Origin: Marinobacter sp. SS21
GTDB lineage: Bacteria; Pseudomonadota; Gammaproteobacteria; Pseudomonadales; Oleiphilaceae
NCBI RefSeq assembly: GCF_028369065.1
Contig: NZ_JAQNDA010000005.1
Span: 227,308-291,307 of the forward strand
DNA: 64,000 nucleotides
Direction: 5' to 3'
Below are positions 21,905 through 23,113 of the stretch, in pieces. Both the position numbers and the translations under genes were made by a program. Below the pieces are notes generated by a model that saw nothing but the letters and a program-made list of their open reading frames with translations, ran no database searches and was not told the DNA's origin. Positions within the stretch are counted from its first letter, which is position 1; every line of letters starts with the position of its first letter.

Positions 21905-23113
21905 ATGAATCTGGTCTATAAGAATGAAAAACCGTTGTTTGCAATCGCTGTCGTCCTGTCCGGCCTGTTTTGGTTGGGGCTGCTCATCGCCACGTTTGGT
22001 GTGCTTCTGATTTACCTGCTGCTGGGGTATCTGTTTTTCCTCTTTGCCCATTCGGCGTTTATCTCCCACCTCAAAGGCTCTGGGGTTCGCATCAGCGAGG
22101 ATCAGTATCCAGACCTACACGCCAAGTTGGTGGAAGGTTGCCGCAAGGTGGGGCTCAAGGACATACCCGATGCCTATCTGCTCCGGGCTGATTTCTTCAA
22201 TGCCCTGGCGACCAAGTTCCGGGGGCGCCATTTTGTCGTGCTGTTCACCGATGTGGTGGATGCCCTGGAGGACCAACCAGGAGCCATCGATTTCTATATC
22301 GGCCATGAACTGGGGCATATCCATCGAAAGCACCTGACCTGGCGCACGTTCCTGGCGCCCGCCTCCCTGTTGCCGGTGCTGGGTTCGGCACTGCGCCGGG
22401 CCGAGGAATACACCTGTGATCGCTACGGCGTGGCCTGCTGCCAGTCCGAAAATGACATCAAGGCCGCCATTGCCGCCATTGCTGCCGGGGATACTCGCTG
22501 GAAGACCCTGAACGTGACGGCCTACCTTCGCCAGGCGGAAGCATCCAACGGCTTTTGGATGTCGTTCAACGAACTGACCGCGGACTATCCCTGGCTGACC
22601 AAACGGATGGCCGAAGCGGTGGCGCTGAGCCAGGGCAAGGCGATCCGGCATCCCCGTCGTCATGGCTTTGCCTGGTTCCTGTCGCTGTTCGTGCCTCGGG
22701 TGGGTGCTGGGGGCGGCGCCTTGTCCATCCTGATTACCGTGGCGATGATCGGCATCCTCGCGGCGGTCGCTGTGCCGGCCTATCAGGACTATGTCGAACG
22801 CGCCCGGTACGCCTCTGCCTATGCCGAAGCCCAGCAAATCCAGGTTGCCGTAGACGAATACCTTCAGAGCCATGAGCAGTGGCCGTCGACCTTGCAGGAT
22901 CTGGGCTTTGCCGAAAGCACGGTGGTCAATGTCGGCAGTCATTACGACGTTGCGCTGCTTGGCGGCGGAGCCATTGGCGCCAACATGGGCGAAGATGCCT
23001 ACGGCGAGCCCCGCTATCTGGTTATCGAGGCCAAGATGACCAAGTCCGGCATGAACTGGGTCTGTTACGGCCAGAATGTGGTGGAAAAGCACCTGCCCGC
23101 TGCCTGTCGCTAG
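21905..23113 (+). CDS. M48 family metallopeptidase fused to a C-terminal type IV pilin-like domain
   Basis: 402 residues. Two membrane helices at about 10-55 are followed by an M48 peptidase domain with H134-E-L-G-H138 and the third zinc ligand in RRAEEYTCD near 166. From about residue 272 the chain becomes a type IV pilin: ALSILITVAMIGILAAVAVP, then AYQDYVERARYASAYAEAQQ, and a C-terminus WVCYGQNVVEKHLPAACR with the paired cysteines of pilin disulfide loops. The prepilin cleavage site and Glu5 are absent. The start at 21905 is supported by GAGGGA upstream. The fusion suggests a peptidase held at, or acting on, a pilus or secretion apparatus; that is inference. Confidence 0.88.
   Translation: MNLVYKNEKPLFAIAVVLSGLFWLGLLIATFGVLLIYLLLGYLFFLFAHSAFISHLKGSGVRISEDQYPDLHAKLVEGCRKVGLKDIPDAYLLRADFFNALATKFRGRHFVVLFTDVVDALEDQPGAIDFYIGHELGHIHRKHLTWRTFLAPASLLPVLGSALRRAEEYTCDRYGVACCQSENDIKAAIAAIAAGDTRWKTLNVTAYLRQAEASNGFWMSFNELTADYPWLTKRMAEAVALSQGKAIRHPRRHGFAWFLSLFVPRVGAGGGALSILITVAMIGILAAVAVPAYQDYVERARYASAYAEAQQIQVAVDEYLQSHEQWPSTLQDLGFAESTVVNVGSHYDVALLGGGAIGANMGEDAYGEPRYLVIEAKMTKSGMNWVCYGQNVVEKHLPAACR

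Follow-up and report, generated by a model that had tools for sequence, protein, structure and literature searches.

A membrane M48 peptidase fused to a pilin domain without processing signals in Marinobacter and other proteobacteria

In Marinobacter sp. SS21, a 64,000-nucleotide stretch of contig NZ_JAQNDA010000005.1 (positions 227,308 to 291,307; hereafter the window, whose numbering is used throughout) carries a gene that joins a zinc peptidase of the M48 family to a type IV pilin domain. A preliminary description of this DNA had proposed one continuous frame uniting the two parts, and this is borne out by a single open reading frame (ORF) at 21905-23113 on the + strand, encoding 402 amino acids with an ATG start and no internal stops. 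Searched separately, the two halves each exceed the gathering score of their Pfam model: Peptidase_M48 (PF01435) with 43.9 bits against a cut-off of 20.3 (E 3e-11, best stretch residues 69-150) and Pilin (PF00114) with 45.1 bits against 22 (E 2.2e-11, residues 299-402). The landmarks named beforehand also lie in frame, namely HELGH at residues 134-138, a hydrophobic helix inside residues 275-296 and a C-terminus with the pilin cysteines (WVCYGQNVVEKHLPAACR at 385-402). Pilin numbering was set from the helix proline, P291 being pilin position 22, which makes G270 position 1 and S274 position 5. The parts of the gene are:

21905..23113, + strand: whole gene, M48 peptidase-pilin fusion of 402 residues, stop codon included (from the ORF, Pfam and homologue coverage)
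21926..22081, + strand: predicted N-terminal transmembrane hairpin, helices 8-29 and 33-59 (from model secondary structure and Lys plus Arg counts)
22085..22630, + strand: M48 peptidase domain, residues ~61-242, predicted cytosolic
22304..22318, + strand: HELGH zinc-binding motif, residues 134-138, with H134, E135 and H138 invariant in 120 of 120 homologues
22406..22420, + strand: E168-Y-T-C-D172, the ExxxD motif, E168 being the predicted third zinc ligand, with E168 and D172 invariant in 120 of 120
22694..22726, + strand: PRxGxGGxxS segment, residues 264-274, where a pilin would have its prepilin cleavage site and Glu5 (from the homologue alignment)
22742..22792, + strand: conserved pilin-type helix, residues 280-296 (pilin positions 11-27), the most conserved part between divergent members and kept in headless ones
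22793..23110, + strand: lower part of pilin alpha1 and globular pilin head, residues 297-402, predicted periplasmic
23063..23107, + strand: head cysteine pair C387 and C401, a predicted disulfide, invariant in 120 of 120

The same fusion was found in other genomes and recurs in many proteobacteria. Of 7999 candidates scored, 1487 proteins matched at E <= 0.001, the best 120 at 58-100% identity; among the 120 listed, the query is covered over its whole length in 119 (the window protein included) and over 96% in the other. This coverage excludes a frameshift or read error joining two genes, which had been named beforehand as a possible refutation. A precomputed Pilin label is absent in five of the 120, although those five align, and some homologues carry names for both parts in their source records (one is annotated as 'Zn-dependent protease with chaperone function/Tfp pilus assembly major pilin PilA'). 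The architecture is already visible to annotation pipelines; the portions of the literature searched turned up no published description of it.

By its profile match and zinc-ligand residues the protein is assigned to the M48 peptidases, and it is probably proteolytic. The zinc-ligand pattern of the family, HExxH plus the Glu of ExxxD, is found as HELGH at 134-138 and EYTCD at 168-172, with E168 as what we take, from the M48 family, to be the third ligand. Residues H134, E135, H138, E168 and D172, together with C387 and C401 of the head, are invariant in all 120 aligned homologues, and PF01435 is matched at E <= 0.001 by 65 of 65 aligned members. The protein falls outside HtpX, its best score with the NCBIfam equivalog models being 33.4 bits against a cut-off of 341. 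In comparisons of structure models its predicted fold is closest to BepA, ZMPSTE24 and Ste24p, all proteases of protein processing or quality control. Set beside these three and HtpX, the fusion alone adds a C-terminal pilin helix and head. The resemblance in fold favours a rival explanation, in which a general membrane quality-control protease performs HtpX-like work and the pilin piece, unconnected with pili, has been borrowed to serve as a C-terminal membrane anchor. Cysteines C171, C178 and C179 (window 22415-22441), near the predicted ligand E168, are also invariant in 120 of 120 homologues despite the predicted cytosolic location of the domain, and a metal or redox role is possible for them.

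The pilin part begins only after about 265 residues and differs from type IV pilins (PilE/PilA, PF00114) in having a protease ahead of it and in lacking the leader peptide, cleavage site, Phe1 and Glu5. Anchoring on the helix proline made 196 of 199 sequences readable (120 proteins and 79 loci, overlapping in species), the three that failed the anchor pattern being left out; the pattern itself spans positions 17-24, so that the counts are unbiased only for positions 1-16 and 25-27. Across the 196, Phe1, Thr2 and Glu5 are never found and Gly at -1 occurs in 65; Gly predominates at positions 1 (178) and 2 (182), and Ser at position 5 (162). In 27 control pilin segments, drawn from 20 of the 21 loci that a class-wide search matched via pilins, Gly -1 is present in 25 and Phe1 and Glu5 in 26 each, the lone segment without Phe1 and Glu5 being itself another fusion protein. 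Because Gly1, Gly2 and Ser5 predominate and Glu5 is wholly absent, in contrast to the controls, the processing and assembly signals have been swapped for a conserved Gly-Gly-x-x-Ser segment and not lost at random. The missing cleavage site and Glu5 had been recognised from the outset, and together with the missing Phe1 they support the accompanying claim that the pilin part cannot be processed or assembled normally. The helix that follows keeps the packing and flexing residues of true pilins (A11, G14, L16, A17, A18, A20, P22, Y24 and Y27), with G14 in 191, L16 in 189 and Y27 in 185 of the 196. In Neisseria, efficient pilus assembly requires Glu5, and the stretch of helix that melts in the filament is bounded by Gly14 and Pro22, two residues thought to permit its unfolding upon incorporation (PMC5059446).

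These counts bear directly on the idea that prepilin peptidase does cut the pilin part, releasing the protease and sending a minor pilin into the filament. The head has a pilin fold, and Glu5 is described in one study as frequent, not universal, in class III signal peptides (PMC10191384); against this stand the total absence of Phe1, Thr2 and Glu5, the scarcity of Gly -1 and a pre-helix segment of variable length (one alignment column is empty in 66 of 120), which leave this reading very improbable and the least likely of those considered. The protein thus shows the profile and fold of a type IV pilin and has neither a processed signal peptide nor Glu5; on sequence grounds it is best filed as an M48 peptidase bearing a pilin domain, and not as a pilin subunit, HtpX, BlaR1 or modular pilin. 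Modular pilins (PMC8179133) consist of an N-terminal processed pilin module and an extra module, for example PilB of Streptococcus sanguinis, with S74 and M26 peptidase modules mentioned. The fusion resembles them in joining a pilin module to a foreign one. It is unlike them in its reversed order, with the foreign module first and predicted to face the cytosol, and in a pilin without the processing motif.

The distribution of charge predicts an N-in topology with a cytosolic M48 domain: over 85 members the mean number of Lys plus Arg is 1.92 in residues 1-9, 0.04 in residues 27-34 and 1.89 in residues 54-66. The modelled head has a pilin fold when structure models are compared. Without a cleavage site, the protein is expected to remain intact in the inner membrane, with the active site probably on the cytosolic side and the pilin head probably on the periplasmic side. 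A tethered, membrane-anchored peptidase, as first suggested, is supported. The companion suggestion of docking on, or trimming, a pilus presupposes a protease located outside the cytosol, and the charge distribution speaks against such a location. With its M48 domain predicted on the cytosolic side, the enzyme could probably not act on an assembled filament, and its likelier clients are prepilins and pilins residing in the membrane or other proteins exposed to the cytosol. BlaR1 (PMC9834060) shares the order of parts predicted here: helices in the membrane, a zinc protease facing the cytosol, a further membrane helix and, last, an external domain. This order brings to mind a receptor protease whose periplasmic head senses a ligand or the state of a filament and whose helix signals to the cytosolic protease, which then cuts a regulator. 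The same source, however, places BlaR1 N-out and C-out where the fusion is predicted N-in, and the fusion carries a pilin head where BlaR1 has its beta-lactam sensor. Peptidase M56, the BlaR1 family, was not among the five Pfam families found at E <= 1, and BepA, ZMPSTE24 and Ste24p match equally well or better. No regulator gene is conserved next to the fusion.

Which part of the pilin domain is conserved weighs further on these alternatives. The 76 headed members give 2151 divergent pairs, with M48 identity below 65%. Helix positions 11-27 are the best conserved in these pairs, at a mean identity of 0.70; M48 averages 0.56, the N-terminal hairpin 0.46, the start of the pilin part (positions 1-10) 0.40 and the head 0.25. 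The head is absent in 9 of 85 members, all of which retain the helix, and in 34 pairs of these nine the means are 0.61 for the helix, 0.54 for M48, 0.45 for the hairpin and 0.32 for pilin positions 1-10. On a tree of the 85 M48 domains the headless state takes seven changes, at least five of them forced by well-supported branches. The search pattern first labelled 10 of the 85 rows headless, and one (L091) was reassigned by eye to the headed members, having a head with an altered end; the 450 bases behind the headless frames were inspected by eye, in the three forward frames, for head remnants. Headlessness is stable in Methylobacter, because its two headless forms are sisters with a nearly identical short tail. 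The tail of another member, L039, may be a shortened head, and the head of the Parathalassolituus member (L034) has a long acidic insertion ahead of its last cysteines. The description of the C-terminal part as a full type IV pilin domain thus holds as regards the Pilin profile and fails as regards the head, which is the most variable region and not a constant part.

Loss of the head with retention of the helix argues against the receptor protease, and that reading is unlikely. The dispensable head agrees with the quality-control protease, as does the occurrence of C-terminal pilin modules in unrelated proteins. A bare anchor should drift, though, and between divergent members the helix outconserves both protease and hairpin and stays pilin-like even without a head; such conservation and persistence would not be expected of a neutral anchor. 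On balance the quality-control reading is a doubtful one.

The reading tentatively preferred, at somewhat less than even chances, is a membrane-anchored protease whose unprocessed pilin helix recruits pilin-like clients, that is, a pilin look-alike acting as substrate adaptor. In this view the protease would sit anchored in the inner membrane through the hairpin on its N-terminal side and the pilin helix on its C-terminal side, and the uncleaved helix may pack sideways against pilins, pseudopilins or their handling machinery. Docking of this kind would present the M48 site with prepilins (for example their leaders), with pilins in surplus or with a partner facing the cytosol; the head would add another contact, one that changes fast and has been given up in some lineages. 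A narrower version, in which an inverted modular pilin, stripped of its processing and assembly signals, keeps the helix as bait and degrades pilins or pseudopilins ahead of their incorporation into a filament, would make the protein a pilin-dedicated protease; this is conceivable and on balance unlikely. In a brief literature search, judged by titles, no dedicated pilin protease was evident.

A link to pilus genes had been put forward as a check, and it holds in part. A scan of a genome collection gave 167 relatives; the 80 retained are for the most part gammaproteobacterial or betaproteobacterial, apart from a few metagenome bins bearing other labels. Two of these bins, titled Klebsiella pneumoniae (L057) and Helicobacteraceae (L032), cluster with other bacteria on the tree and their contigs are likely mis-binned. 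PilB exceeds its curated cut-off in 15 of 15 genomes (13 with an intact fusion, two of these headless, and two with broken copies), and the PilQ model is matched in all 15. In 42 further carriers, from 42 of the 80 loci kept, PilB exceeds the cut-off in 37, versus 231 of 323 genomes in a class sample. Fisher's test gives p 0.025 (n=42) and 0.0009 (all 57), values uncorrected for kinship or species overlap that count the two broken-copy genomes as carriers. The five carriers below the cut-off all have N-methyl pilins, with 9-21 matches each, so that all 57 carrier genomes have either PilB (52) or N-methyl pilins (5). Because the helix is the most conserved stretch between divergent members and every carrier tested has PilB or N-methyl pilins, the family can plausibly be connected with type IV filament systems; dependence on such a system is allowed and not proven.

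Several observations weigh against the adaptor reading. PilB lies below the cut-off in 5 of the 42 carriers (the isolate Paraglaciecola hydrolytica, L024, and bins L037, L045, L058 and L069), and a prepilin peptidase was detected in only two of these five. The fusion is rare and patchy, and so not a core pilus part, occurring in 4 of 323 genomes of the class sample, a count that may be slightly low as the five best candidates per genome were scored with a limit of E 1e-20; of the other 34 genomes matching at E <= 1e-20, one does so via an M48 relative whose tail is FHA-like and the rest via pilin-bearing proteins. Within the genus of the window a full-length match is present in 7 of 60 other genomes and apparently broken copies in two (L117 and L118, in genomes G001 and G017), which suggests that the gene is dispensable in some Marinobacter relatives. 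The window's contig holds none of the genome's nine PilB-model, seven PilQ-model and 13 N-methyl-pilin matches; the early remark that no pilus genes are nearby stands for these models, and the missing linkage suits a quality-control protease. No neighbour recurs beyond related groups when the relatives' loci are compared. Over short times, moreover, the helix is without special constraint: across 14 Marinobacter loci the proportion of nonsynonymous differences (pN) rises from 0.089 in M48 through 0.121 in the helix and 0.146 in the hairpin to 0.301 in the head, the synonymous value (pS) being ~0.7, near saturation. That the helix is here not much more constrained than the hairpin again favours quality control.

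In the window a patatin gene precedes the fusion by 190 bases and YjdM/PhnA comes after it, the nearest genes being TetR, DUF2784, patatin, YjdM/PhnA, glutamine amidotransferase, NnrU and YebC. Marinobacter loci show two distinct sets of shared neighbours (around L012 and around L014), and the surroundings in the window are a third. With three different settings in one genus, the fusion therefore behaves as an accessory gene.

Other C-terminal pilin grafts were encountered. A second kind (L113, 436-2619, - strand, genome G134; L114, 903-3080, + strand, genome G093) has about 600 residues that begin like a lipoprotein and match no Pfam family, and at its end a Pilin domain lacking Phe1 and Glu5. 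A third (L116, 522-1580, + strand, genome G243; the same gene in L110) combines a DUF2628-like membrane part, scoring 20.5 bits and so below the cut-off of 23, with a Pilin domain that also lacks Phe1 and Glu5. A distant M48-like membrane protein (L121, 498-1700, + strand, genome G277) has RELSH instead of HELGH and a C-terminus that is FHA-like by eye; it is maybe a protease relative without activity.

To our knowledge, the disposal of surplus or unprocessed pilins within the bacterial inner membrane is poorly understood. The family offers a natural test of what the pilin helix does before assembly, as it keeps the helix and has lost the features of polymerisation, G14 and P22 being retained in a protein predicted never to be incorporated into a filament. 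Should the pilin-dedicated protease prove true, the lipoprotein-pilin and DUF2628-like-pilin grafts would show that pilin look-alikes are a general plug into type IV filament machines. If docking through the helix is true, the family would provide a handle on pilus biogenesis; if it is not, pilin modules would have been reused as ordinary membrane domains.
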